Shown here: positions 28,208-47,427 of the stretch, piece after piece | How positions within the stretch are numbered: the first letter of the stretch is position 1 | Layout: the number at the start of each line of letters is the position of its first letter | Source: Collybia mongolica | Lineage: Eukaryota > Basidiomycota > Agaricomycetes > Agaricales > Clitocybaceae | Direction of reading: 5' to 3' | NCBI GenBank assembly: GCA_013420905.1 | Contig: JAAXNY010000004.1 | Span: 62,001 to 126,000, forward strand | Length of the DNA stretch: 64,000 nt | Notes under the pieces: model-generated | Databases searched by the model: none | What the model saw: only the letters and a program-made list of their open reading frames with translations | Told to the model about the DNA's origin: nothing | Program-made: the position numbers and the translations under genes

Positions 28208-28674
28208 GGCACTAACAACGGCGCAACAACAACAACAACAACTACAACAAAGACAACCACCACCACCACGAGGATGACAACAACTAAGGACAACGAGGAT
28301 GACAATGACAATGATGACTAAGGACAATGGGGACAACGACAAGACAAGCGGCCAGTGCCGCCGCCGCTGAAACCCAGGCCGCTGATGACGTCGCAGGGGC
28401 CAACGAGGACGATGGGGGGCTGGGGGCCCCCGCCCCCACCTATATTAAATTATATTATCATATATGTATTATACTTAGTAATAATATATGTTTTATTCTA
28501 TTAATTATATAGATTGTTAGTAAGTAAAAGAGTAAGTAAGTGCTTCATAATAAAAGAAAGTAAGTGAGTCTGTGCAGAGTCCATGTGGACTTTGTGCTGT
28601 CCGTGCAGAGTCCGTGTGGAGTCTGTGCGGAGTCTGCGCAGAGTCTGCAAGGACATGTGGGGGAGTGTAAAGTG
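27481..28674 (+). mobile_element. Non-autonomous terminal-repeat element, copy 1 of inverted pair
   Basis: Ends show GGTCTTTACACTAAGCCACA at left and, in reverse complement, CACTTTACACTCCCCCACAT at right. Subterminal tandem units of about 11-15 bp (GCAGAGTCC-type) lie at 27520-27550 and 28565-28660. The interior is a GGTTCAAACA word, blocks rich in CAA/CAG triplets (28120-28270) and a C-run. Long frames there are low complexity and differ between copies, so I call no gene. The same sequence recurs inverted at 29212-30428. Confidence 0.65.
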
Positions 28675-29211
28675 CAGGATATGGTGGGTGTCAATGAGAT
28701 TATTTTGGATGGTTCTGAGGGGTATTCTTATCTCCTTCTACTCACACACTTGTTGGCATGATACTGGTCAGTCATGCCATTATCCTAGTAGTATAAGAGC
28801 ATTGAAGGGGAAAAAACTGGAAACTCCCCTTATTCCATCTCATGTCTTCTGACCTTCCACCAGTTCCCAGTGATATCACCTCTACAGTGCTGAGGATGCT
28901 AACTTGACACATACAAGTTCTGATTTGTGAAGTGGATTTTGTTCCTTCACTTTCGCTTGAAACAGACATGTACAAGTTACTCACCTCCCTCGATTACTCT
29001 AAGCCTCATGGGATAAGACATCTGTAGCAGTTGCGGAGGATGCTAGCTTGACACATTTTTGAAAATGCTGAAAAATCAGGTATTTTTGAGTGTGTTTCAT
29101 TTGACCCTTCTATGTAATACTTCAGATGTGAGTGCCTGGTCATAGCCGTGAGATGAGATGATTACGAGCCGCACCTTTGAGGAAGATATTTAGTACTCAT
29201 TTGTTCATAGC
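28675..29211 (+). other. Spacer of the palindrome, with a DUF6534 first-exon relic
   Basis: About 540 bp of unique sequence between the two inverted elements. At 28848-28890 the plus strand reads MSSDLPPVPSDITST before going out of frame. This resembles the first exon of the DUF6534 gene at 63011 (MSSEPPAIPGNITAT) and is probably a fragment of such a gene. The words GAGGATGCTA[A/G]CTTGACACAT occur twice (about 28890 and 29035). Confidence 0.45.
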
Positions 29212-30428
29212 TGTACTTTACACTCCCCCACATGTCCTTGCGGACTCCGCACGGACTCCGTACGGACTCCGCAAGGACAGCACAAAGTCCACACGGACTC
29301 TGCATGGACTCCGCGCAGACTCTGTGTGGACTCCACAGAGTCTGCACGGACTCACTTACTTTCTTTTATTATGAAGCACTTACTTACTCTTTTACTTACT
29401 AACAATCTATATAATTAATAGAATATAACATATATTATTACTAAGTATAATACATATATGATAAAATAATTTAATATAGGCGGGGGCGGGGGCCCCTGCC
29501 CCCCCATTGTCCTTGTCGGCCCCCACGACGTCGTCAGCAGCCTGGGTTTCAGCGGCGGCGGCACTGGCCGCTTGTCTTGTCGTTGTCCCCATTGTCCTTA
29601 GTCGTCATTGTCCTCGTTGTCCTCGTTGTCCTTAGTCGTTGTCATCCTTGTGGTGGTGGTGGTCATCTTTGTTGTAGTTGTGGTCATTGTCATCGTGCCA
29701 TTGTTAGTGCCACCGCTGCCACTGCTGTTGCCGTCATTGCCGCAGGCCTTGTCGGCACTGTTGCTGCTGTTGCTGTTGCTGTCTTCGTCGTTGTCGTTGT
29801 TGTTGCCGCCTTCCTCCTGTTGCTGTTGGCGGCCGTATCCTTCATTTCAAGTTCCTGAAAGTGGGGAGGGGGGGACGCGCTGCGTGGTGAGTGTGTGGGT
29901 GAGTGGCGGTGTACGACTCACCTGGTTCTGCCCCTCGGGGCGCCCTTTCCTTGTCGTCCCCTTGTTCCGCGTCCGTTTCTATCCTTCTCCCCACATCATC
30001 TTGTGCGTCGTCATGTTGATGTTGGTTGGCGTTCAATGTGTTGGCGTTGGCGGCGTGGGTGCATTGGCGTTGGTGTCGGTGTTGGCGGTTTTGGCGGGCG
30101 TTGTTGATGTGGTTGAAAAGAACCAACAAAGACGTGGCAATGGTAATGTGACCATTGCACGTGCCTTGTAATCATGTGACCTAAGTCCGTTCACTTGAGG
30201 CCAGTGATTCTGTAGCTAGAAATGCCTGCCTTGCCCAACGGTTATGAACGCCAAACATATTACGTAATGTTTGTGCCTGTATGTGTTCGAACCTAGTCGG
30301 ATGCAAGTTTTTCACCGCCGTTATGTTATGTTATTAATAACAAATAGTATATATAATTTGTGTAAATAAAATTTATATTACTAAGTCGATTAGTAATCGA
30401 CTGGCCGTGCGGACTCTGCGAGCTGTCC
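29212..30428 (-). mobile_element. Non-autonomous terminal-repeat element, copy 2 of inverted pair
   Basis: Reverse complement of 27481-28674 with modest divergence. It starts at the inner side with GTACTTTACACTCCCCCACA and the GGACTCCGCAC tandem units (29225-29350). The GTT/GTC triplet-rich tract, the GGTTCGAACC-like word and the TTATGTTATGTTATTAATAAC stretch are in the expected mirrored order. The outer end stops at GAGCTGTC (30428), about 40 bp short of the terminus seen in copy 1. The sequence then passes directly into intron 5 of a FAD oxidoreductase pseudogene, so this end is a truncation or rearrangement breakpoint. Confidence 0.65.
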
Positions 30429-31978: not shown

Positions 31979-32241
31979 TGATAGGGCCCAAAATTGTTTG
32001 CACTTATAAAGTCGACAAGTAAGGCTATTAGTATCATTTCTAATAACCAAGTAAATGGTAATAAAGGATTAGAGTCGAGCTCCAAGATGGCTAATCAGAG
32101 TGAACTAGTCTAATGGATAATACACTATCAGTACAGAGGACTATGAGTACGGTCTATTATTAGTCCTATTCACCATGCCCGGTTACAACCTCGGTGTCTT
32201 AGTTCATAAGTAACCGTTGTAGTATGATATCATTAGTCCGG
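31979..32241 (+). mobile_element. Solo LTR, left part (split by nested insertion)
   Basis: Begins TGATAGGGCCC and reads in the sense direction on the plus strand. It continues, after the nested element and minus the 4-bp duplication, at 46471-47427. The rejoined length is 1216 bp, the same as the LTRs of the nested element. Flanks show CCGC on both sides (31975-31978 and 47428-47431), a 4-bp target duplication. It is clearly older than the nested element, with scattered substitutions. Confidence 0.85.
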
Positions 32242-33457
32242 TGAAAGGGGGCTCCTGGGCTATAAGTGCGCTGATGCTATGAAATGTAATCTCTCTCACA
32301 CACACACCAAACCTAACAATCAACACACGAACAGTAGGAATCGCCTGTTTTGAGTTCGGGTTCAAGTGCTTAGAAGCACTAAGCTTTGAATAGTACTAGC
32401 CAAAGCCCTTTCCAATGATCTCTCGACGGGTTCGATTTAGACAAAAGCTTCAACACAGGTTCAAAAACCTGCTAGGTATATTTATAATATCTCTCGATCC
32501 AATAGACTGAGTACCAAGTGTACGTTCAATTATTAGTGATCCCAAGCGGATCTATAAGTCCAAGCGACTTATCAAACAATACAGTGCCAAGTGCACTAAG
32601 GCCAAGTGCCTAGTAATTCCAACGGACAATACAGTACTAAGTTCCAAGTGAACTAAGTTTCTTTAATTCTGTGGTTCTCCAATCAATTCCAATCAAGACA
32701 CGTTGAAGCAATCTGATCCTTAATTCGGGCACGCAATAGTGTTTTAACAAATGTGATTTGTATACTCTATAGTCGCGCGAAGTGGGGGCAAGATTCCTTG
32801 CCTTAGCGCTACTCATCTACAGTCTATTTATAATGTACAAACTAAATATCATATGGAATTGTAAATTTTACACGGAACCGCGCTCCCGCGCGCCAAGAAT
32901 CTGTATTCAATACTGACGCGTCTACTACAACTTGGCGCGCGCGCCATGCGTGCCAATTATGTCGTTTACTGGTTACTTATCAAATATTGAAAGAGCTGGC
33001 TAAACTCTTATCAAGTCCCGACCGCGCGCTCTGTTATTTAAAACAGCGCGGCACTGTCGTTTACTCCTCCTGATTGTCCTGGTTGCTATTCACGGTGTCC
33101 CGTCACTTCCGGTAGTTAACACCAAGTACCCCTGACTAGGATCGGGTTGTGCAAGTCCCGAATTTACAATTACTTCTCCTATTAATGATGATCCCCGGAC
33201 TAATGATATCATACTACAACGGTTACTTATGAACTAAGACACCGAGGTTGTAACCGGGCATGGTGAATAGGACTAATAATAGACCGTACTCATAGTCCTC
33301 TGTACTGATAGTGTATTATCCATTAGACTAGTTCACTCTGATTAGCCGTCTCGGAGCTCGACTCTAATCCTTTATTACTGCTTACTTGGTTATTAGAAAT
33401 GACACTAATAGCCTTACTTGTTGACTTTATAAGTGCAAACAATTTCGGGCCCTATCA
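32242..33457 (-). repeat. 3' LTR of the Gypsy element
   Basis: 1216 bp, TG...CA. Identical by eye to the LTR at 45255-46470 apart from 33358. The hairpin array lies at 32511-32654. Confidence 0.92.
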
Positions 33458-33472: not shown

Positions 33473-33907
33473 AAATGTAGACTGTCCTCAGTCTCTCTTT
33501 GCCGGCAGGTTGGTCCAATACTTCGGGTCTGCACGCGTCTAATCTTTCAGTACAATGTTACAACGGTTCCGCTTTTAGACAGGTAGGCGCGCGATGTTGG
33601 GATCGAGCCCAGAGGTTTACTTCCCATCAGGATCGTGACAGTTATATACGTCTCCTGAGAGAGTACTTGACATTTGGACATCGCTTTACAGATATTTCAG
33701 TCATCTGGACATTTTTCTCGTTATGTTTCTGACACTTCAGCAAGAGATCGGTACTCCTGTTTGTTCTTTAGAGCTTCGCAATGCAGGGTTGTGCGTTTTA
33801 AAAAGCTCGCGTCCTTGCTAAGTTTTAGACAATTTGGACTTTATAGCCCATTTCTAAATCTCTTTGCTATCTGCATCGCTCAAACGCTCCAACCTTTTCA
33901 AACAGAA

Positions 33908-35857
33908 ATGTCTTCCACTTCTACTTCCGCCATGGCTCGTGCTCTGCGCTCGCCTTCCGCGCTGTCTCTCTCGCTCTCTGCCGCGATTCTACCGACTGAG
34001 GGCCGTTCCCCCACTATGGTCTATGTGGACCAGCCGGTCCCCTCATTTTCCGACCTCCTTGAAGATGCCGAGGGCGATGTCTTTGTCGCCATGGAGCAAG
34101 GGTGGATTATTATGGCCGAGGAACTCGCGCCCCGTATGGACCATCAGGGCCCCCTTGACCTCGACGAGTTGATTGACTTCGTCGATCACTGCTCCATGCT
34201 CATCGTACGCCCATCTTTTACTTATTAAAACCTTTTACTTATTTACTGGTCTCAGGATGCCATCACTGGCGTGGTCCGTGGCGCGCGTTTTTCGCTGCCA
34301 TATCCGGCTATTCTCCTCCTGCGCGCGCTTCACCTTCAAGTGATGCGCATCCCAGTCGACGCGCGCGAGGCTTCGTGGTCTTCCTGGCGCACGGTCATAT
34401 CGACTGACCTGGGCCACAATTCCATTCTTCTGGTAAGTGACTTGTTTACTTCTTTACTCTGCCTGCCCTTGTCAAGCGGACTACCTTTTACTTTAGGGCC
34501 AGGCTCCCACTGTGGAGCAAGTCCTGGACCAGGTGGGGTCGCGCTTCGAGCGCGACAATGGTGAAAGTATCTTTCAGGATACTTTCCTTGTCCCTCCTCG
34601 CATGGTTGGCACACCGCGCCGTTACCATCAGTACCGGGACAGTTGGTCCGCCGCGCCCTTGCCGGCGCGCTCCCCGGTCTTGGTACCCGCGGTTCGTTTA
34701 TTACTGCTTTTTATTACTTTTCTTCGGTAGTTGACTTATTTTAATAGCCCCTCAAGCGGAAGCGTACAGCTGGGTCCAAGGGCAAAGGCCGTGCAGTTCC
34801 CCAGGTATATCCTTTACTTTACGAGTTTCACATTATTGCTGACTTGATTTCAAAATTCTAGTCCGACATGTCGCGCGCCCAGGGGACTGGCAGTGCTTCC
34901 GCGCCGCGTCCCTCGGAAGCAGGCCCGGTATGTCTCTTTTCTCTCTTGAAGTCATTTACTTTTACTCATCTTTATCTCCTTAGTCCTCTGGGCAGCCGCT
35001 GGTGAAGGTTGAAGTCCCTGAACTTCGGCTCTTCGATGATGAGATCGCCCGCCAGTTGGCTCAAGAGGGGTTCGCGGAGTTGTTGCCTCCCGCGGCCCCT
35101 TCTCCTCGTCGGTCGCGTAAGACCACTCGCTCTAGGGATAGGGCACAGGCGACACGCCGCAAGCACGCGCTGGTTCCCAACCGGGAGCTGACGCTGCTAC
35201 AGTCCCCCATTACCTCCCTGCTGGCTGACCTTGCGCCGCGGCGCTCTTCCGTATGTTTATTACTACTTTATTTCTTGTTACTGATCATTTTTACTAGGTG
35301 GGCTATCCTTGCACGATGTGCGCCACCCGCGGCGACATTGAGTGCACCTTCAACGGTTGGGGTAAACCGTGCGTGGAATGCGCCACCGCCAAGAAGGGGA
35401 AGTGCAGCTTCAGCCTCACTCCCCAGAAGCGCGCTAGGCTCCGTGAGGATCTGGGGCCCATGCTTGGTGCGGGCATTTCTAGTAAGCCATCTTCTTTCCG
35501 TCTTTTTGTTTACTACTGATTTTACTTATTCTACTAGCGGTTGCTGAAGCCTATGCTCAGCTCAGCGACGCGGACACCCTTGCCGCGGAGGTCATTCAGG
35601 CCGCTAACCGCGCGCTTGAAATGCGCGACTCCTTGTTGGCGCGCATAGTTGGCACCATTGGTAGGTTGTACGAGGAGGAAGGCCTGGAGGGCCTTCAAAA
35701 CCTCTTGCTGACTACGCCAGCCACGGAGAGCGCCCTCCTCTTCTACGCGGACTTCCAGAATCTCCCTTGGCCGCCCTTGGAAGAAGAAGTAGAGGTTGAT
35801 GACAGTTCTTCGTCGTCAAGATCTTCTGCGTCCGTTCCTGACAGCGAGGAGGAGTAG
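33908..35857 (+). CDS. Accessory gene 1 carried antisense in the Gypsy element, 520 aa, Zn2Cys6-like
   Basis: Eight exons (33908-34204, 34256-34432, 34497-34691, 34748-34804, 34862-34927, 34984-35250, 35298-35481, 35538-35857) join in phase to 521 codons. Introns are 47-64 nt, most containing TTTACTT words, with GT..AG ends. The product starts with a Ser/Ala-rich region and has a basic patch PLKRKR near residue 224 and an Arg/Lys-rich stretch near 310-330, both possible nuclear signals. Residues 358-389 form two CxxCx7C repeats (Cys358, 361, 369, 378, 381, 389), close to the fungal Zn2Cys6 binuclear cluster, which has six residues instead of seven in the inner spacing. The C-terminus is very acidic and Ser-rich, ending SVPDSEEE. 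A DNA-binding regulator carried by the element is a reasonable inference, not shown. Upstream is the 3' LTR, whose bidirectional activity could drive it. Confidence 0.75.
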
Positions 35858-36557
35858 CCGCGCCGCGCCCCCCCCCCTACGTTTTATATATATATCTGTG
35901 TTTCCCTGGGCCCTAGTGCCCTTTTTTTTTTTTACTTACATATTCCCCCGCCTTTCGTTGGGCTTCAATTCTTTAATTGAAGTCCAACACATATCTTGTA
36001 TACAGTCCCCTGGACTTTAAACAATACAATTGGTTTTTGCCGTTGTTCTATTGTCTTCATAAGAAAGCTTCCGCCCTTGCCCCGGCTACTTAAGTTATAA
36101 ATAGTACGGTTTAATTCTGGTGCAATTCTCTCGATCATTAAAAACCGTGGCGCGATCACTGACTTTTTATAGACAATCTATTTCAATCCTTGTAACCTTG
36201 GTAGGTTTTTCCAATTCGATTTTGCTTATACCCATCTCCCCCTCAACACTGATAACAACTGTCCCAGTTGTCATGCGGACACTGCCGCGCTCCACATGAA
36301 TTTTTACGGAGCTCCTTTTTTTTTTAATTGGGCCCAGCATTTCAATTAGGCACGCGTCTCGGACCTGTTCAGTTGAAATGTATAGATTTTTCTGGGGATA
36401 GAACGCGCGCAACGAATGAGAGACTGGGTAGCACTTCTCTAGTCGTAGAGGTATAAAAAGGGCACTGGCTGTGCTTTTTGTCCCAAGACATCGCCCAACT
36501 CTATTATACTCTCTTTACAACGTTCTGGTTCGAAGAATCAATTTCCTCTGCATCATT
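35858..36557. other. Spacer between the two accessory genes
   Basis: Pyrimidine runs (C9 at about 35868 and T12 near 35925) follow the stop of gene 1 and may be part of its 3' end. The rest has no exon chain on either strand. Confidence 0.5.
36452..36459 (+). promoter_or_regulatory. TATA box of accessory gene 2
   Basis: TATAAAAA-type word (TATAAAAG) about 100 bp upstream of the ATG at 36558, on the plus strand. It suggests gene 2 has its own promoter rather than using the LTR. Confidence 0.6.
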
Positions 36558-37935
36558 ATGACTAGCCCCCCCAACTATCAAGACATCGAGAACTTCAAGA
36601 TGGTCCAAGCTCAGTGGCACACCTTTCAAGCTCGTTTATCGATGGACACCCTTGTTGAACAAAGGGTCAGCGTCCGGAAGTTAGGCGAAACCGCGGTACA
36701 CTTTTTACCAATTAACTTATATACGCCGTTATCGTAACAACTTTTACAATTTACAGCTACTCCTGACTGAGTCCAAAATGGTTTTGACGGAGCGGTCCTG
36801 GCAGAATGTTATCTTTGGCGTCCGTAAAGCATTCCAGGGACTACAACATGTATACCCCGAGTTACTTCAAGAGCCCGTCTACCGTAACATTGTGACTCTT
36901 ACTGCCGCTATTCACCGTCACCGTGAAAAGGTCCGCACCGAGCACCTGTCTCAAACCGCGGTGCGCGCTTTTTACCTTATCTTGCACTGTACTGTTCTTA
37001 AACCATGGTTTTCTGGTACTAGGTCCCTGCTACTGGTGGTGATGTGGATAGTCCCGCTATTCCAGGCGAGGTCATTGCTGGCGGTGAATATGACGGTGAC
37101 ATTGAAATGTCTGGTACTGACTCGGTATGTTTCTTTTTAGCTACCGCGCTGTCAGTGCGCGACATACTCAATGGCGTCTCTTCTTTACTCAAGAATATGG
37201 TCATTGATTCCGGCGCTACGGCTAGTGCTACTGTCTCTGGGCCAGTGACTAGTCGTCTCCTTAGTGAAGGACCAATCACCCGTAGTCGCAAGGAGAAGGA
37301 GAACATTAAGGTTCCCCGTGTCAAAAGGACTAAGGCTGAAAAGGCTGCCATCAAGGTACCCATTCTTGTTTTTGCTCTGTCTATTACTTTGTTTCTCATT
37401 CCTACAGGACGGTAAGCGTTCTGAGCTCAACCGCGGCAGCACTCTTCGTCCCAAAAAGCGTACGAGGCAGGACACCCCGGATGAAGATCCAAAGGCATCT
37501 GCTGAGGGTACATTTTCTAATAATAGATGGTTCTATTTTTCTACTGACTGTGTATCAGATACTCGTGTCTTTATTGACTTCCGTCCCTCCAAGGAGCACG
37601 ATGTAGTCTTAGCGCGGGCGCGCTTGATTGCTGATGCGGGCGATCCCTTGTCACACACCAAGCAAGCCCTCGGTAGGATGCTTTTAAACTACCGCGCTGA
37701 GTTGGAGGAGATCAGTCATACAGTGTCCTTCTTATTGAAGCGTCGTGACGCCACTATGGACGAGGTTACTCGCCTCAACGGTCTAATGAACGAGGCCGCT
37801 CTGGAGGGAGGCTCTGACGAGGCTGCCACTGCAAGCGCTACCGAAGTCCATGACCAGGATGACAATGATAAAGAGGAGGTAGCTCCGGCTGATGTGCCCT
37901 TGCCCGAGGTTGAAGACGACTTCATATCTGCTTGA
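36558..37935 (+). CDS. Accessory gene 2 carried antisense in the Gypsy element, about 360 aa
   Basis: Exons 36558-36695, 36757-36960, 37023-37124, 37194-37355, 37408-37507 and 37559-37935 give 361 codons in phase. Two proposed introns (37125-37193 and 37508-37558) have GT..AG ends, are multiples of three and contain no stop, so they could be retained; the retained form would be 40 residues longer. The protein is soluble, with a basic middle (ITRSRKEKENIKVPRVKRTK and LRPKKRTRQ, possible nuclear signals), a helical heptad-like stretch near KQALGRMLLNYRAELEE and an acidic tail rich in Asp/Glu. I recognise no family. The stop lies 146 bp from the convergent end of pol. Confidence 0.65.
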
Positions 37936-38081: not shown

Positions 38082-41000
38082 TCACTTATGCAACTTCCGG
38101 TGTGACATAGTAGTTTGTGGTAGTGCCGGCGCTATCCCCTCTTCAGTGTTTTCACTAGAGCTTGACTCTGAATCGGACTGATCCAATTGGACTCTGTCAA
38201 AGGTATAGTCACGCTCCTTATAAACTTGTCTATTAGCGGGATCTTTCGATTCCACTAAAGCATTTAATGTTTCGCTAGAGATGTCTATTAGATCTTGCAG
38301 ATTATCCGGCAGTTCAATTGTACTCCTAGCAAAATAGGGAATAACCCTAAACGCCCCCACTTTATGTTGCCACACCGATCCATCCATTTCACAAACAATA
38401 TAGGCTCCCCCGCGGTTTCGTCTCAGGACTATCATTGGTCCCAGGTACCGTGGCTTCAGCTTTTTATCGAGCGAACTTTCGACCTCGGTATTTCTAACTA
38501 GTACTAAACTTCCTGGTTTGAAATCATAGTCTCTGATGGTCGCGCTGTGATCCTTCTCATACTGTAATAGTCTCCTTCGTTTTTCTATATTGATACGTTT
38601 CCTCATATCGGCCACATGCTGGACGTGCTTAGCTAGAGCCTGCGCTCTAAACCCAATGAGTTCCTCTGTAGTCAATATTTTTCCTGGTAACTTTACTAAC
38701 CAAGTGGCTTCAATGATATCTAACGGTAAGGTTGGGTGCGCGCCCGTAATCATAAAATAGGGGGAGCAACCCGTCCCTCTCCGTATAGTAATCCTGTCAG
38801 CCCACATTACATGGTGGAAGAAGTAGTACCACTTCTTTACATCACCACCTGTAGCTTTGAAGACAGCTTGACGCACATCCCAATGTGCGCGCTCGGCGAT
38901 CCCATTTCCTTTGGAATTGTATGGTGATATACTTATTCCTGTAATACCATACTTGGATTCCAGCCACGCTTTGGCTGCGACAAAGGCAGGACCATTATCC
39001 GTTACAATTTCCGTTAGAGAACCCCATCTACAAATTACTTCTTCGAACAGCCACCTTCCCAAGGTCTTGCCGTCCTCAGATTTGAGGGGCGCGCCTTCCA
39101 TCCATGAAGACAGCGCACATCTTCCTTGGACAATGTATTTATAACCGTTAGACGATGGGCTCATATACATGGTGTCCGCATGCAATACTTGGAATATAGA
39201 CGGTGTGTGGGTTATAACAGGAGGGATTCTCAACAAAGTTAAAAGCCTTGTCTGACAGATGTGACATGACTTCACATACCATGATACATCGCGTTCCATT
39301 TCTGGCCACCAAAATCTTTTATCTATTAAAGATTTTGTTGCATAGAAACCCCTATGTCCAACAGAATCGTGAGACGCCTTCATCATATATGTTCGGTGAT
39401 TTTTATCAACAACAAGCTGGTGCGCGCTATCGATATTTTTCCTATACATCCTGCCTTCTGGATCCAAAAAGAAATTAGACGCCTGCCTTGCAAACTTTAG
39501 GTAGGCGCGATCTGTCATTCCTTTTGGTCTCTTTTGTGGTCTTTTTAACCATTCTTTTATTAAAGGTAGGTTTTTATCCTGTTCCTGTGCCGTAGGTGTC
39601 CGTTTAGACTCATCATATACTTCCCTTACATTAGGGTCGTATTTAAACTTTTCATTGGGTATGACAGTAGTATTTACAAGTTGCTTTAGATAAGCTTCTC
39701 TTTGAATACCGAACCGTCCTAAACCTAAGTGCTGTTTTACTTCTCCGATAAATGCTGCTTCACCAGCCCAGGCATTGTTTACTTCCACTTCAAAATCAGA
39801 GATTTCCTTTGCAAGTTGGAATAGATATCCGCCGCGCGTGTCGATCTCCTCTTTAAAGTCTGACAGTTCCAAAGGGTCATCCAATCCTTCCGTTGGGTTG
39901 ATAAACCTTAAAGGACCTGAGGGTTCGTCGTAACCATCATCTGGGTCCGGGTAGACAGGATCCCCTAGCTGCGCGTCGCGTCTTGACAGACCGTCTGGGC
40001 CAAAGCCTTTACCAGCTTTATGAACCAAAGTAAAGTGGAACATAAGTATCCTATCGATCCACCTATTTACCGTTGCATTAGGTCCTAAACTTGGGTTTGA
40101 TAACATCCCCTTAATGTACTTTGCATCCGTTTCCACTACCAAATTTCGTACTCCAATAAACCAATAATAACATGCCATTAGAACTCTCATTAATCCGAAT
40201 AGCTCTCGTTTGGGTTGTGAGAAGCGCGCTTCGCGCTCATTCAGAGTTATCAAGTCAAATCTAGCATAGTGCTTTCTTCCAGGTATATCAGGGTCTTCCT
40301 GGTAGATATAGTAGCCTACGGCTTTCCATGACGTATCTACTGACAGTACTACTGGCGTATTCCAGGTGTAATTAATTGGACGGAGCGCGGGGCTATTTTT
40401 AAGTGCGTCTAATAATAGCTGCTGCGCTTCTTCTTGCTCAGGCCCCCATATCCAAGGTTCACTACTCCTAGTTAACTTTTGAATTGGTTGACCTATACGG
40501 GCGAAGTCTTTAATGAAATTCCTGCATACACCAATAGTTCCCATGTAAGCGCGTACTTCACTGACATCTTTGCATGGTCCCCATCTTTCAACTACACCGA
40601 TTCTATCTGTAGTAGGTTTCCGTCCTTCATATGTACATCTATGTCCTACCACTAGAATTTCACTTGCGCATAACATAGACTTATATCCTGAAAATGTTCC
40701 TCCAGAATACTTCATTCTCTGTACGACGCGATTTACATTTTGCATATGTTCCCAGAAGAAGCGCCTAACACCTGGAGCACCAGGTAGCTCTTCTTCTGTT
40801 CCGTCCGGTAGTTCGTAACGCGTTGCTGGACCGCGCACGGGTACATCATCAATATAGGGTATTGTGACATGTGGTACCTCATCCTGTAGGATGTACGTGA
40901 CATCGTCATGAAATATTGGAACAGAATTCGTCCATCCCATAGGGAGTGTTACTAATCTCAGCGCGCCAAATGGTGTTTGGAACGTGGTTAGATCGCGCGA

Positions 41001-42085
41001 GGTTTCTGCTAAAGGCCTCTCATCGTATCCTACATATAGATCCATCATTCCGCCACAAGCGCGCCCTGCGAAGTGTTCTGCTAGTTCTTCGGTAGCGGGT
41101 GGTAGACCCGAGTGCGCTATTGTGACTGCATTCAGTGGTTCTAGACTATGTACAATTCTAAGCTTCTTTCCTGGGCCTTTCTTTAATACGGTAAACCATC
41201 TAGACCTGTATGATGAATTGGATCTCTCATAGACTCCTGCATCAATTTTTGTCTTGATGATTTTACAAACATCTTCATAGATTCCTGGTGGGATTCTAAT
41301 GTTCCTCTCTGTCCACGGCGTATGTGGGACTACTGGTATTTCGACGGGAGGAAAATATTCCTTCTTAAAACTACCGCGCTCACTATCATTCCAAGCAAAA
41401 CCATCATTATGTTTGCACATAAAGTCGTGGATTATATCCATCTCTTTAGGTTTTAAGAAGCTTTCTTCTTCGTGTACTCTTTGGAATTCCGCGCGCCTTT
41501 CCTCAGTGTACCTCCCAGTTGGTTTAAACGGAGGTGGGTTAGGCGTTAGAACTGGTAGGGCTGCTAAAGGGTCGCCCTTTATATCTCTGATAATTCTAAA
41601 TTTATCAGGCAGGTCCGCCAGTGTTGGTTTTGTTTTCAAATGTACTGGTTTATACTTCTTTCCTACTAGCTGATCCATGGTCTCAATATTACACTTTTCA
41701 CTTGTTGCCGTTCCAAGACCGCGCTCGTTTGTGCCAATTTGCCACTGCTTTAATTTACTTAAAGCTTTATTGATCATGGGCTGTTCTTGAGCGTATGTCA
41801 GCGGTCTAGTGGGTGTGCTTGCTGGGTCCCTACTGTTCTGCTCGTAGTTTATTACTGGTCCATCGCGCTCATCTACGGAAGCCAAGTACGTGGCTAGTAA
41901 TTCGCGTTCAGGTACTGTACTATTCATGTTTACATCACTTCTAGACAAAAAGACATCTCTAAGTTCTTTGTGACCAAAATTCCGCTTATCAGTAGGGTGT
42001 CTATAACCCGTTATAATAAAGTTCCCGTCCTCATCTTCAGCAATTTCTACGGCTAGCTCTCCTTGATCACTTTGGATTAATTCAT
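38082..42085 (-). CDS. Gypsy pol: reverse transcriptase, RNase H, integrase
   Basis: The frame is open from the end of the protease frame; a long part begins at 41948 without needing an ATG, as expected of a frame expressed by -1 shift from the protease frame. Counting from 41948: RT has YIDD at residues 365-368 and the upstream LPMGWTNSV motif. RNase H has Asp538 (LSVDTS), Glu582 and Asp608 (VETDAKYI). The integrase zinc domain has His860, His865, Cys895 and Cys898. The catalytic triad is Asp925, Asp984 and Glu1019. The tail ([22 protein letters not shown]) is the usual GPY/F-like end; no chromodomain follows. About 1290 residues, no internal stop, so it is likely functional. Confidence 0.93.
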
Positions 42086-43282
42086 CGAAGGCCGAAAATC
42101 CTGCTCCGGTTGTCTTTTCAACAGCTTAGGCGGTGATCCCTTTGCATGGGTAGGAATAGTACACCTTCGTCCCGTGTTAGGGTCCGTGATAGTGACTACT
42201 TGTCCCCCGTCCCGAGCATTTTTGATCTGACTTTCCGTGAGCGTATCAAACGGTCTCCCGAGCAATACTTTGTATGCGGGTGAATTTATAATATGTACTT
42301 GGAGGTAGATGGCCATGTCATTAAACAAGAAAGGGACATTGCGCGCTAATCCCGCTGTTTTCTCCACTTGTTTATTAGCACTCTGCATGTGTATGACAAC
42401 GTCCGGATCCCATGAAATATCCAAGTCTAAAGCCGTTTGTTTAGCCATTGATACTATTTGGGATCCCCCATCTAATAAAGATTCCTCCGTTCCTACCCCA
42501 TTTATTACTGGATATACTGCGCGCAAAGAGGCCGATTCTTTTGCTACATACAACTGTTTGGGCTCTTCCCCGGCTGGTAAAGATTCTAAATACTGTAGGA
42601 CTGGGTCCCCACATATTATAGATCCCTTAGGTATTCCGCCGCGGTCATACTCTGAGATGAAGAAAGACTGGAATGGGATTGACTCTACTGGTAGCGCGTC
42701 ATGCCGTAAGTAGTTATCATCAAGTTCCCAGTCCCCTCCAAAGGGTAAGACGTCTTCCTCATCTATTCCGTTTATTTGCAAGTTAGCGTCCCTTTGGGTA
42801 AGGGACTTACGTCTGGCAGTTACAATATTCTTTATTCCATCTCTAATGGTTTTTGACGAGCCCATTAACTCTCCCATGGTCAATGTGATAGGGTTGTCTA
42901 ACACTTTAGCAATTATATCGCCACCTTTTAATTTTACTTCTATCGGGGACTTAGTTTCATAAGTCGGACCGCGCTTAGTGTTAAAATTAGGTAGCGGATC
43001 AACTGGTTCAGGGTTGCGTTCCGTTCTCCGGGGTATGTAGGGTACCACGGGCACATCGATGTAGGGTAATTCTTTTCGTACTGGGGACTTTACTGATGGT
43101 TCAACAAATTTTACTTTCTTTTTACTAGGAGACGGCGCTACCAACTCCTCTTCACTACTATCCTGACTACTCTCTGAATTGTTACTTTCTTGACGACTAT
43201 TTCTATTTTTACTTCGGTCCTCTGGCTGTCTCTTGGAACGCGACCTAGTCGTAGGTCTAGCGTGTTCCTTAGCCTCCTTCAT
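42077..43282 (-). CDS. Gypsy protease frame
   Basis: 401 codons with a Ser/Lys/Arg-rich N-terminus ([17 protein letters not shown]) and an aspartic protease core: [16 protein letters not shown] around residue 271 is the catalytic Asp-Gly-Gly variant of the usual DSG/DTG, and the later [11 protein letters not shown] is the flap-distal ILGRP-like motif. The ATG lies 5 nt after the gag stop, and the frame is -1 relative to gag, open across the junction. Translation could therefore use frameshifting or reinitiation. It overlaps the beginning of the pol frame by about 10 nt or more, again at -1. Confidence 0.85.
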
Positions 43283-43287
43283 CGGAC

Positions 43288-44799
43288 CTAATTGAAACCC
43301 GACTCTTTAACCTTGTTTTGGTTATTGAGTTCTGCTACCTGCCCTAATAAAGTACTCATTTGTGCTTGTAAGGCTACTATGTCAGGGTTCGGCGCGCTCT
43401 TTGCCGTAGGATTATAGTTATTATTTATATATTCCTGTTTCTGCATCTGAGGTGCTACTGGCAGCGCGGTTTGCGCGCTCTGTTGTCCTAACATTTGTTG
43501 CGCTTGAAATTGTGCCATTTGTGCCATTATGGCTTTCAAGGTTCCAATGTCGTTACTATTGTCTACTGCATTATGTGACTGCATAACGGACAATACTCCT
43601 GGAGCGGGTCCTTCTGTGACATCTCCGTAATAAAGGGCCACTACCTTCTTTGAATGGAAGTGTTCCACTTTATCTTTCAATGATACCGTTTCTGGTTCTC
43701 TTGGAATATATGATCCGTCTGGTAAGCATACTCCTCCATTTGCATTGGTTTTTATTTTCCCTTCCTCAAAATGTTTCTGTTTCTCGGGACAGGCCATTAT
43801 GAAGTGTCCGGGTGTAAAACAGTAGTGACATTTATACGCATTTGGTCTTTGCGGTTGTCCTTCTTTAGGCTTTCCGTACTGATTCTGATACTGATGCTGC
43901 TGGGGTGCGCTATTCGTGGCATGGTTCTGAACAGTTGCTTGTTGAAGCGCTTTCATTACATCCTCGAATCCACTCCTCGTATTCTTCTCATTTACTTGGA
44001 GACGGTCTAACAAATTAACTATTTGTTGTTTTATTTCATCCATCTCTACTTTGATTTTGGGCGCTGCTGTTGCTGTTACGGACGTTATAAACGATCTATT
44101 TGTGTCTGGAATATTCATGTTGGCTACACCTTCAGAAATGCTGATTGCAGTTGCTATAACTTCCTCCAGATCGTACTGATCCCCTTTTCGTCGCGCGAGC
44201 GCGGCGGCTTCGGCAATAGTATTAGGATCTGCTCGGTTGTTTGTAGCAACGGCTTGTCCTGCCTGTGTAGCATTAGACTGATTATTCCCTAGCAGGGTTA
44301 GCCTTCCTTGTACTTGGGATCTGAAGACTTCGTCTAGACATCCCAAGAACTTGGTAACTAATTCACGGTTAGAGATAATAGGTGGCCTAACTCCCAAGAG
44401 TTTAATAGATTCTGCTTTGAATTCACGCTTCAGCTTTTTCAGCGCGGCCTCATCGGTTACTCCAATACGTGGGTTGGCGCGACACACTGCCTCTAACTTG
44501 GCTACTGATCCTTCTACTTGATCGAGTGCTTCCAGATAACTAGAGATCAACTCTGTCTTGAAATCCGTCCAAGTGCCTGTCTTATAGTGGTCTAATGCCC
44601 TCCACTCATTCTCTGATTGTAGGTCTGCGTATTTTCCCAACATTAACTTCTTTTCTTCATCATTTGTAATGTTACACTCCTTCCATAGGACCTCCATTCG
44701 CTCCAGAAACCGGATTAAACCCGTGGGCTCTTTTCCTTTGAATACTGGTGCATCACGGACGCCTGGTTGGGGCATATATTTACGAGGGGGTTCAGTCAT
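43288..44799 (-). CDS. Gypsy Gag
   Basis: From the first in-frame ATG (44799, MTEPPRKYMPQPG) about 503 residues. The central region FLERMEVLWKECN...ALDHYKTGTW resembles the retrotransposon Gag capsid domain. A Gln-rich linker is followed by one CCHC zinc knuckle (CHYC-x4-H-x4-C; about residues 324-337 from this ATG) and a Gln-rich tail. The frame is open without any ATG a further 346 nt upstream to 45145, coding Arg/Ser/Pro-rich sequence (PPPRRARTRG). A spliced or non-AUG longer Gag is possible. Confidence 0.88.
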   Translation of the reverse strand: MTEPPRKYMPQPGVRDAPVFKGKEPTGLIRFLERMEVLWKECNITNDEEKKLMLGKYADLQSENEWRALDHYKTGTWTDFKTELISSYLEALDQVEGSVAKLEAVCRANPRIGVTDEAALKKLKREFKAESIKLLGVRPPIISNRELVTKFLGCLDEVFRSQVQGRLTLLGNNQSNATQAGQAVATNNRADPNTIAEAAALARRKGDQYDLEEVIATAISISEGVANMNIPDTNRSFITSVTATAAPKIKVEMDEIKQQIVNLLDRLQVNEKNTRSGFEDVMKALQQATVQNHATNSAPQQHQYQNQYGKPKEGQPQRPNAYKCHYCFTPGHFIMACPEKQKHFEEGKIKTNANGGVCLPDGSYIPREPETVSLKDKVEHFHSKKVVALYYGDVTEGPAPGVLSVMQSHNAVDNSNDIGTLKAIMAQMAQFQAQQMLGQQSAQTALPVAPQMQKQEYINNNYNPTAKSAPNPDIVALQAQMSTLLGQVAELNNQNKVKESGFN

Positions 44800-45234
44800 G
44801 ATTACTGAACGGTTCTGAGTAGCTAACGAGTTCGGGTTTGCTACTGGGTTTACTACGGACAATCTTCCGCGCGCTACTGGTCTACTAGTAGTCGATATGT
44901 TTCCTAAGGGCTCTGGAGTTCTAAATACTTGCCTTGGTCCTGAAGATCCAAAGGCTGGTTGTGAAGATCCTCGTGTGCGCGCTCGCCTAGGAGGTGGTAA
45001 CGACTCTGTTGCTCCAGCGTTTTGCGAATTTTTAGTCTTCCGCGTTTTTGTAGCTACTTGTCTTGCAAGTGGCTGATTAGTTAGTCTGTTTGACGAGCTG
45101 GCTTGTGGGCGCGGCTCTTGAGACAGATTGACTAAACTTTCTCCGCTCTACTTCAATTTGTAGACGACGTTACTCGTCTTGGTATAATATTTTTCAAAGA
45201 AAGATGCTCTCTTTAGACTATTCAAAACTCTGAA

Positions 45235-45252
45235 CCCTCGCGGTGGGCTCCA
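45235..45252 (-). other. Primer-binding site
   Basis: On the minus strand, two bases after the 5' LTR, TGGAGCCCACCGCGAGGG. It begins with TGG, complementary to a tRNA CCA tail. I cannot assign the tRNA. Confidence 0.6.
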
Positions 45253-45523
45253 GATGAAAGGGGGCTCCTGGGCTATAAGTGCGCTGATGCTATGAAATGT
45301 AATCTCTCTCACACACACACCAAACCTAACAATCAACACACGAACAGTAGGAATCGCCTGTTTTGAGTTCGGGTTCAAGTGCTTAGAAGCACTAAGCTTT
45401 GAATAGTACTAGCCAAAGCCCTTTCCAATGATCTCTCGACGGGTTCGATTTAGACAAAAGCTTCAACACAGGTTCAAAAACCTGCTAGGTATATTTATAA
45501 TATCTCTCGATCCAATAGACTGA

Positions 45524-45667
45524 GTACCAAGTGTACGTTCAATTATTAGTGATCCCAAGCGGATCTATAAGTCCAAGCGACTTATCAAACAATACAGTGC
45601 CAAGTGCACTAAGGCCAAGTGCCTAGTAATTCCAACGGACAATACAGTACTAAGTTCCAAGTGAACT
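45524..45667 (-). repeat. Array of six hairpins with constant CAAGY / RCTTG pentaloop
   Basis: Plus-strand reading: GTAC-CAAGT-GTAC (45524-45536), GATCC-CAAGC-GGATC (45551-45565), ATAAGTC-CAAGC-GACTTAT (45567-45585), AGTGC-CAAGT-GCACT (45596-45610), AGGC-CAAGT-GCCT (45612-45624), AGTTC-CAAGT-GAACT (45653-45667). Stems differ completely but each is perfectly complementary. The 3' LTR has the same array at 32511-32654. The old solo LTR keeps all six (47015-47158), with one changed loop base and one wobble pair. They lie downstream of the LTR TATA box, so they would be in the 5' leader RNA. Confidence 0.85.
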
Positions 45668-45836
45668 AAGTTTCTTTAATTCTGTGGTTCTCCAATCAAT
45701 TCCAATCAAGACACGTTGAAGCAATCTGATCCTTAATTCGGGCACGCAATAGTGTTTTAACAAATGTGATTTGTATACTCTATAGTCGCGCGAAGTGGGG
45801 GCAAGATTCCTTGCCTTAGCGCTACTCATCTACAGT

Positions 45837-45845
45837 CTATTTATA
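45837..45845 (-). promoter_or_regulatory. LTR TATA box
   Basis: TATAAATAG in the sense direction; the solo LTR keeps CTATAAATAG at about 46838-46847. Confidence 0.6.
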
Positions 45846-46470
45846 ATGTACAAACTAAATATCATATGGAATTGTAAATTTTACACGGAACCGCGCTCCC
45901 GCGCGCCAAGAATCTGTATTCAATACTGACGCGTCTACTACAACTTGGCGCGCGCGCCATGCGTGCCAATTATGTCGTTTACTGGTTACTTATCAAATAT
46001 TGAAAGAGCTGGCTAAACTCTTATCAAGTCCCGACCGCGCGCTCTGTTATTTAAAACAGCGCGGCACTGTCGTTTACTCCTCCTGATTGTCCTGGTTGCT
46101 ATTCACGGTGTCCCGTCACTTCCGGTAGTTAACACCAAGTACCCCTGACTAGGATCGGGTTGTGCAAGTCCCGAATTTACAATTACTTCTCCTATTAATG
46201 ATGATCCCCGGACTAATGATATCATACTACAACGGTTACTTATGAACTAAGACACCGAGGTTGTAACCGGGCATGGTGAATAGGACTAATAATAGACCGT
46301 ACTCATAGTCCTCTGTACTGATAGTGTATTATCCATTAGACTAGTTCACTCTGATTAGCCGTCTCGGAGCCCGACTCTAATCCTTTATTACTGCTTACTT
46401 GGTTATTAGAAATGACACTAATAGCCTTACTTGTTGACTTTATAAGTGCAAACAATTTCGGGCCCTATCA

Positions 46471-47427
46471 CCGGGGATCATCATTAATAGGAGAAGTAAT
46501 TGTAAATTCGGGACTTGCACAACCCAATCCTAGTCAGGGGTACTTGGTGTTAACTACCGGAAGCGACGGGACCCCGTGAATAGCAACCGGGACAATCAGG
46601 AGGAGTAAATGACAGTGCCGCGCTGTTTTAAATAACAAAGCGCGCGGTCGTGACTTGATAAGAGTTTAGCCAGCTCTTTCAATATTTGATAAGTAACCAG
46701 TAAACGGCATAATTGGCACACATGGCACGCGCGCCAAGTTGTAGAGGACGCATCAGCATTGAATACAGATCCTTGGTGCGCGGGAGCGCGGTTCCGTGTA
46801 AAATTTACAATTCCGTATGATATTTAGTTTGTACACTATAAATAGACTGTAGATGAGTAGCGCTAAAGCAAGGAATCTTGCCCCCACTTCGCGCGACTAT
46901 AGAGTGTACAAATCACATTTGTTAAAACACTATTGCGTGCCTGAATTAAGGATCAGATTGCTTCAACGTGTCTTGATTGGAATTGATTGAAGAACTACAG
47001 AATTAAAGAAACTTAGTTCACTTGGAACTTAGTACCATATTGTCTGTTGGAATTACTAGGCACTTGGCCTTAGTGCACTTGGCACTGTATTGTTTGATAA
47101 GTCACTTGGACTTGTAGATCCGCTTGGGATCATTAATAATTGAACGTACACTTGGTACTCAGTCTATTGGATCGAGAGATATTATAAATATACCTAGCAG
47201 GTTTTTAAACCTGTGTTGAAGCTTTTGTCTAAAACAAACCCGTTGAGAGATCATTGGAAAGGGCTTTGGCTAGTACTATTCAAAGCTTAGTGCTTCTAAG
47301 CACTTGAACCCGAACTCAAAACAGGCGATTCCTACTGTTCGTGTGTTGATTGTTAGGTTTGGTGTGTGTGTGTAAGGGATTACATTTCATAGCATCAGCG
47401 CACTTATAGCCCAGGAGCCCCCTTTCA
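46471..47427 (+). mobile_element. Solo LTR, right part
   Basis: Continuation of 31979-32241. Begins with the duplicated CCGG and ends CCCCCTTTCA at 47427, followed by the 4-bp duplication CCGC. Contains the six-hairpin array at 47015-47158. Confidence 0.85.

Follow-up and report, generated by a model that had tools for sequence, protein, structure and literature searches.

Two multi-intron genes lie antisense to gag-pol in a Ty3/Gypsy element family of Collybia mongolica

Introduction

How can genes with many introns be kept by an element that is copied through RNA? The question is raised by a 64,000-nucleotide stretch of the agaric Collybia mongolica (assembly GCA_013420905.1, contig JAAXNY010000004.1, positions 62,001 to 126,000 of the forward strand), hereafter the window, in which positions are counted from its first letter. 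The window holds a complete Ty3/Gypsy element on the minus strand, flanked by two long terminal repeats (LTRs) of 1216 bp. Between the 3' LTR, which ends at 33457, and the end of pol at 38082 lie two plus-strand genes with multiple introns, antisense to gag-pol, an arrangement proposed by an earlier note on this DNA and borne out by the coordinates. We are highly confident that both are real, selected accessory genes of the element. We also lean, by a small measure, towards a wider statement, in which a young Gypsy family carries two long-standing antisense accessory genes whose products are nuclear regulators, taken loosely; this leaning comes mostly from the accessory-gene part of the statement. 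The introns provide a clean test of whether antisense genes retain introns through reverse transcription.

Structure of the two genes

Gene 1 runs on the plus strand from an ATG at 33908 to a stop at 35857 and consists of eight exons (33908-34204, 34256-34432, 34497-34691, 34748-34804, 34862-34927, 34984-35250, 35298-35481 and 35538-35857) encoding 520 aa. Its seven introns, of 47-64 nt each, are all GT..AG, and the exons join in phase and translate as previously described. Gene 2, on the same strand, extends from an ATG at 36558 to a stop at 37935, with exons at 36558-36695, 36757-36960, 37023-37355 (or 37023-37124 plus 37194-37355), 37408-37507 and 37559-37935, and encodes 383 or 360 aa. The six-exon, 360-codon model of the earlier note does translate without a stop. 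The frame is equally open when the 69-nt "intron 3" (37125-37193) is retained, giving 383 aa, and a third splice choice leaves it open too, giving 344 aa. The homologue of Collybia nuda encodes the intron 3 stretch (SARDVLNVVSTLLKNMVID against SVRDILNGVSSLLKNMVID), and the stretch, stop-free in the window, is 69 nt long in every aligned copy, a multiple of three, whereas the other four introns each vary in length (introns 1, 2 and 5 among the aligned copies and intron 4 in copy L060). Because of this homologue and this constant length, a gene 2 of five exons and 383 aa is, judged from these comparisons, likelier than the six-exon form, and the third intron of the earlier model is probably exon. 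Within the 69 nt themselves, one synonymous and two nonsynonymous changes were counted, three changes only.

Upstream of gene 2, a TATA-box-like site on the plus strand (36450-36460) lies about 105 bp before the ATG and may function as part of its promoter. Its core was unchanged in all 19 covering copies of the 20 examined. An AT-rich, TATA-like site is also located before gene 1, at about 33796-33805, with the same core in 17 of 19 copies and a core one base shorter in the other two.

Conservation of frames and introns

To compare the copies of gene 1, we aligned 30 of at least 78, namely the window copy and L030-L058, omitting shorter duplicate loci of the same places. The coding length was 1563 and internal stops were absent in all 30. 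All seven introns were GT..AG in 29 of these copies; in L055, two donors were changed. The introns are present in every copy aligned. Gapped columns amounted to 0 of 1563 in the exons versus 24 of 405 in the introns (Fisher p 1.9e-17). Several of the length changes in introns are not divisible by three and would not be tolerated in a frame reading through the introns. Two older copies, with 81 and 84% DNA identity to the window, keep the seven GT..AG introns and have broken frames.

The alignment of gene 2 comprised 20 fetched copies and the window, with 18 complete rows. By the six-exon count, the coding length was 1083 in 17 of the 18 rows and 1074 in L042, which is 9 nt shorter and in frame; gapped columns were 9 of 1083 in exons (all from L042) versus 8 of 300 in introns. 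Among the full last-exon matches listed, the four gene 2 loci of lowest identity included two with complete open frames, and in the remaining two, L059 and L062, the start was unaligned, the frame of L062 being broken as well. A chance assembly of exons is ruled out by the indel pattern of gene 1 together with the selection tests below.

Purifying selection on both genes

The ratio of nonsynonymous to synonymous rates (dN/dS, or omega) had been suggested as a check on the two genes. Maximum-likelihood omega under a codon model, over all branches, was 0.34 for gene 1 (30 rows), 0.39 for gene 2 (18 rows, 383-aa model) and 0.49 for the pol end (last 267 codons, 18 rows). Since the copies differ much at CpG sites, we further computed a controlled nonsynonymous/synonymous ratio within mutation type and CpG class, using the window copy as reference, and obtained 0.45 for gene 1, 0.43 for gene 2 and 0.54 for the pol end. 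The same ratio in shifted frames was 1.55 and 1.67 for gene 1, 1.44 and 2.07 for gene 2, and 1.29 and 1.11 for pol. Considering that the shifted frames exceed 1 while the true frames of the two genes give 0.45 and 0.43, selection acts on the codons. At sites outside CpG, synonymous changes came to 83/913 and nonsynonymous ones to 53/2809 in gene 1 (Fisher p 3e-20), to 26/686 and 17/2223 in gene 2 (p 2e-7), and to 18/457 and 10/1637 in pol (p 1e-6), these p values being too small because the copies share descent. Purifying selection acts on the two genes with roughly the strength seen at the pol end.

Many CpG-type transitions, for example from Arg to Cys, His or Gln, were present in the diverged copies L055, L060, L061, L063 and L064. 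These transitions suggest cytosine methylation of repeats in this fungus.

Copies across the genome

The genome searched comprises 46 Mb in 26 contigs. With the window included, gene 1 occurs at at least 78 places (first exons searched), of which 64 extend past exon 1 and 14 stop at or near its end, and gene 2 at at least 94 places (last exon searched; one partial). From 657 first-look candidates, 35 pol copies were scored; all span 1347 aa and 34 are stop-free. In each of the 35, gene 2 lies antisense at 153-154 bp past pol, as determined from the 41 of at least 94 gene 2 rows that entered the comparison.

Gene 1 adjoins LTR sequence in all 20 copies fetched at 4.6-7 kb, the LTR being cut in L045 and L053 and inverted in L054. 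In L054, which is the same place as L025, the stretch from the LTR to gene 1 was unaligned and gene 1 is still open. Three of these copies lack gene 2 or part of it, L052 because of the contig end, L056 and L058 because of a further LTR inside the element. In two other Gypsy families of the same genome, tblastn queries with gene 1 and with the protein from Collybia returned chance matches only (expectation value E >=0.49), a weak negative, as it covers one post-pol stretch per family, with LTRs not located and short exons able to escape the list of open reading frames (ORFs). The longest antisense frames past pol in these families are 80 aa (L065) and 91 aa (L066). L066 also has, at 1185-2300 on the minus strand, a 371-aa sense open frame after pol.

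Relatives and features of the proteins

The search for protein homologues gave different outcomes for the two genes. For gene 2, the protein database contains a single relative, P0122, a hypothetical protein of Collybia nuda (Agaricales) that is 63% identical over the whole query. Gene 1 has none up to E 1, with about 8000 candidates sharing most words scored; the same database yielded 1140 relatives of pol, so fungal proteins are included. In viral contigs, where gene 2 and pol were searched for, no relatives of either were found.

Gene 1 contains a six-Cys cluster, C-x2-C-x7-C-x8-C-x2-C-x7-C, at residues 358-389 (35310-35405, plus strand), and the pattern is kept in 29 of 30 copies. Its product also bears basic stretches, KRKR and RRSRK, together with an acidic serine tail. 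In the product of gene 2, the N-terminal part is conserved, a basic RPKKRTR stretch recurs in Collybia and the tail is acidic. Basic stretches and acidic tails of this kind suit nuclear proteins and prove nothing. The Zn2Cys6 family (PF00172) has the spacing C-x2-C-x6-C-x5-12-C-x2-C-x6-8-C. Gene 1 gave no Pfam match to it up to E 1, and its first long spacing is x7, not x6. Of the nuclear look pointed out earlier, the basic stretches, acidic tails and six cysteines are present in the sequence, and the Zn2Cys6-like part is supported neither by Pfam nor by the spacing.

Other candidates were set aside as well. In the PDB, gene 1 matched only ferredoxin-thioredoxin reductases, at E 0.8-1.6 over the Cys cluster, which were judged to be chance, and DUF3237 matched gene 2 below the Pfam cut-off (E 0.047). 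TRP28 (PF04195), the criterion for the Retand lineage, was unmatched in the antisense genes up to E 1 in Pfam, and Pfam found no bZIP in their products. The Collybia homologue of gene 2 had zero PDB matches by sequence, and an AlphaFold2 model of this homologue alone reached a mean predicted local distance difference test score (pLDDT) of 40, too poor for use.

The element and its insertion site

The 3' LTR (32242-33457, minus strand) was found as a repeat and has TG...CA ends; the 5' LTR occupies 45255-46470 on the same strand. The two LTRs differ by one mismatch in 1216 bp, and the target duplication CCGG is present at both element ends. The element is a recent insertion, the family is young, and it is probably still mobile. 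Its assignment to Ty3/Gypsy is based on the two LTRs with TG..CA ends and a target duplication, and on the order protease, reverse transcriptase, RNase H and integrase, in which the protease match is weak.

All coding frames of gag-pol are on the minus strand. The gag frame (43288-45147) encodes 619 aa with a CCHC zinc knuckle (Pfam E 8.5e-6, just below cut-off), and the protease-region frame (42077-43306, 409 aa), which precedes pol, contains a weak aspartyl protease match (Pfam E 0.013). The pol frame (38082-42125) encodes 1347 aa with reverse transcriptase at residues 354-496, RNase H at 560-693 and integrase at 906-1070; RT_RNaseH_2, RT_RNaseH and Integrase_H2C2 were above the Pfam cut-off and RVT_1 and rve below it. 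No chromodomain was found by Pfam in these frames. The stop-to-stop frames of gag, the protease region and pol differ from one another, the protease-region frame overlapping both neighbours, by 19 and 49 nt, as programmed frameshifts might require. At 45232-45252 on the minus strand, 2 nt from the 5' LTR, lies a probable primer binding site that starts with TGG.

The window copy is inserted into an LTR of its own family in the opposite orientation. This older, inverted LTR (plus strand) is split by the element into a left part, 31979-32241, and a right part, 46471-47427, and has 96-97% identity to the LTR of the element. Left flanks of about 322 bp were compared for 20 other copies, and three of them matched the family (L042, L052 and L053), the matches being to the gene 1 region, the gene 2 end or the family LTR. 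Elsewhere in the window, at 28568-29353, there are short tandem repeats with units of 11 to 53 nt, rich in CGGACTCCGCA-like motifs.

Discussion

The earlier note had seen here the arrangement expected of long-term cargo whose introns are shielded by antisense orientation. Such cargo is well supported because the introns are kept in the 30 aligned copies of gene 1, both genes are selected, and gene 2 stands beside all 35 scored pol copies and has a homologue in another Collybia. The genomic RNA would read 5' LTR, gag, pol, antisense genes and 3' LTR, and each antisense gene would be transcribed towards pol from its own internal promoter and then spliced. The introns would persist since they are reversed in the genomic RNA that is reverse transcribed and so cannot be read by the spliceosome. 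In the likeliest mechanism, both proteins would then re-enter the nucleus and adjust transcription of the element, as HBZ, whose transcript is spliced, does for HTLV-1 (human T-cell leukaemia virus type 1). Gene 1, as a basic Cys-cluster protein, and gene 2, as its partner, could act on the chromatin or the promoter of the element, and their joint action would set the amount of genomic RNA, with convergent transcription as a second brake. That the gene products regulate the element's own transcription is, by this analogy, a tentative proposal which we place a little short of even. A more specific version, in which a two-gene, many-intron antisense module has long been kept as an equivalent of the HBZ switch and its proteins control transcription or target integration to the family's own copies, seems to us rather unlikely.

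Several observations weigh against reading the genes as selected nuclear regulators, and they concern both selection and function. Mean pairwise dN/dS was as low as 0.18 for gene 1 and 0.16 for gene 2 for pairs with dS above 0.05, while close pairs (dS under 0.03) gave 0.45 and 0.35. In gene 1, synonymous divergence reaches 0.18 versus about 0.06 in introns. CpG decay has probably inflated dS, which is above the intron divergence, and so reduced the simple pairwise values; the controlled values are weaker. The exon and intron indels of gene 2 do not discriminate coding from chance. With respect to function, neither gene product has a Pfam domain at cut-off, a PDB sequence search that used gene 1 and, for gene 2, its Collybia homologue gave no credible relatives, and the Cys cluster shows no special conservation, with 10 of its 32 sites variable versus 119 of 520 overall. 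What speaks for a regulatory role is composition and analogy, which makes it a guess. The transcription regulator or silencing antagonist suggested in the earlier note likewise stays at the level of composition, as Pfam, the PDB, the Zn2Cys6 comparison and the structure model lent it no support.

Among other explanations, we regard it as improbable that the proteins serve as accessory factors after transcription rather than in it, for instance in bringing the preintegration complex into the nucleus or in selecting where the element integrates. The nuclear-looking basic stretches would suit such a role, nuclear import was raised for plant antisense ORFs in the review of Vicient and Casacuberta (PMC7264820), and some insertions of the family lie within its other copies, as seen for the window copy and for 3 of the 20 further left flanks. 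However, nesting may reflect repeat clustering only, 17 of 20 flanks were unmatched, and Pfam recognised no chromatin-reading domain. Slightly less probable again is that the proteins counter host silencing. Sense and antisense transcripts could form double-stranded RNA that the element would have to withstand, and the copies differ by many CpG changes, a sign that the host may methylate or mutate them; but the same evidence fits self-repression equally, and similarity to a known suppressor was not found in Pfam.

Two further explanations are very unlikely, and to a similar degree. Non-coding antisense transcripts are known in other elements, as the review PMC7264820 mentions, and the antisense RNA might be what matters, with the proteins as by-products; against this stand the selection on codons, visible in the contrast between true and shifted frames, and the exons of gene 1, which are free of indels whereas its introns are not. 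The genes could also be recently captured host genes travelling as useless passengers, given their introns and promoter-like sites, features shared with host genes. Such a capture does not agree with gene 2 occupying an unchanged position in each of the 35 scored pol copies, with its diverged homologue in Collybia, or with selection on both genes across subfamilies. When the Collybia protein was searched against the genome, the last-exon matches listed fell only on known places of gene 2, although this is a weak test. We retain the reading of both genes as accessory genes of the element. The evidence that the proteins matter is clear, consisting of codon selection, the gene 1 indel pattern and the gene 2 homologue in another species.

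The earlier note leaves out that antisense genes at the same place are already known from plant and Botrytis elements. In plants, extra ORFs in antisense orientation occupy the interval from pol to the 3' LTR in Gypsy elements such as Grande (gene23), RIRE2, Retand (TRP28) and PvRetro13, according to the relevant parts of PMC7264820 and PMC11963269. By these accounts they resemble the window element in place and orientation, the antisense ORF occurs in most copies of a family, or in all of them, and nuclear localisation and an own promoter have been reported for Grande gene23. A 2025 study reports that every recently active Retand cluster has antisense coding regions at this place, most of them proposed to bind DNA (PMC11963269). 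As far as these portions go, both the 2020 review (PMC7264820) and the 2025 study (PMC11963269) call the function of such genes unknown, and the review recommends looking for antisense and spliced transcripts. Judged from the descriptions, the two genes here, with seven and four to five introns, are set apart from the plant elements; the word "intron" is in neither main text (PMC7264820, PMC11963269), and introns in those plant genes are still possible. A word search likewise did not find "antisense" in the main texts of a survey of fungal LTR elements (PMC3248453) and a survey of Laccaria transposable elements (PMC3411680), and our literature search, which left subscription literature mostly outside, did not find an element like that of the window.

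Boty, or BcGypsy1, of Botrytis cinerea carries the antisense gene brtn and is cited in parts of PMC7264820, PMC8365987 and PMC4227169. It shares with the window element its origin as a fungal LTR element and an added antisense gene. As compared by description, one antisense gene is named in Boty whereas there are two here, and a chromodomain is reported for the gag-pol of Boty (PMC4227169), unlike that of the window element as seen by Pfam. In HTLV-1, HBZ is a nuclear antisense gene product with a role in the provirus life cycle (PMC11963269, in part), and its antisense promoter is inside the 3' LTR (PMC7264820, in part). HBZ is a bZIP protein of a vertebrate retrovirus, whereas the likely promoters here are inside the element and bZIP was not found. 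In comparison to these systems, what is new here is a pair of antisense genes with seven and four to five introns and with evidence of selection, for which spliced reads in RNA data would be an unmistakable sign of activity.

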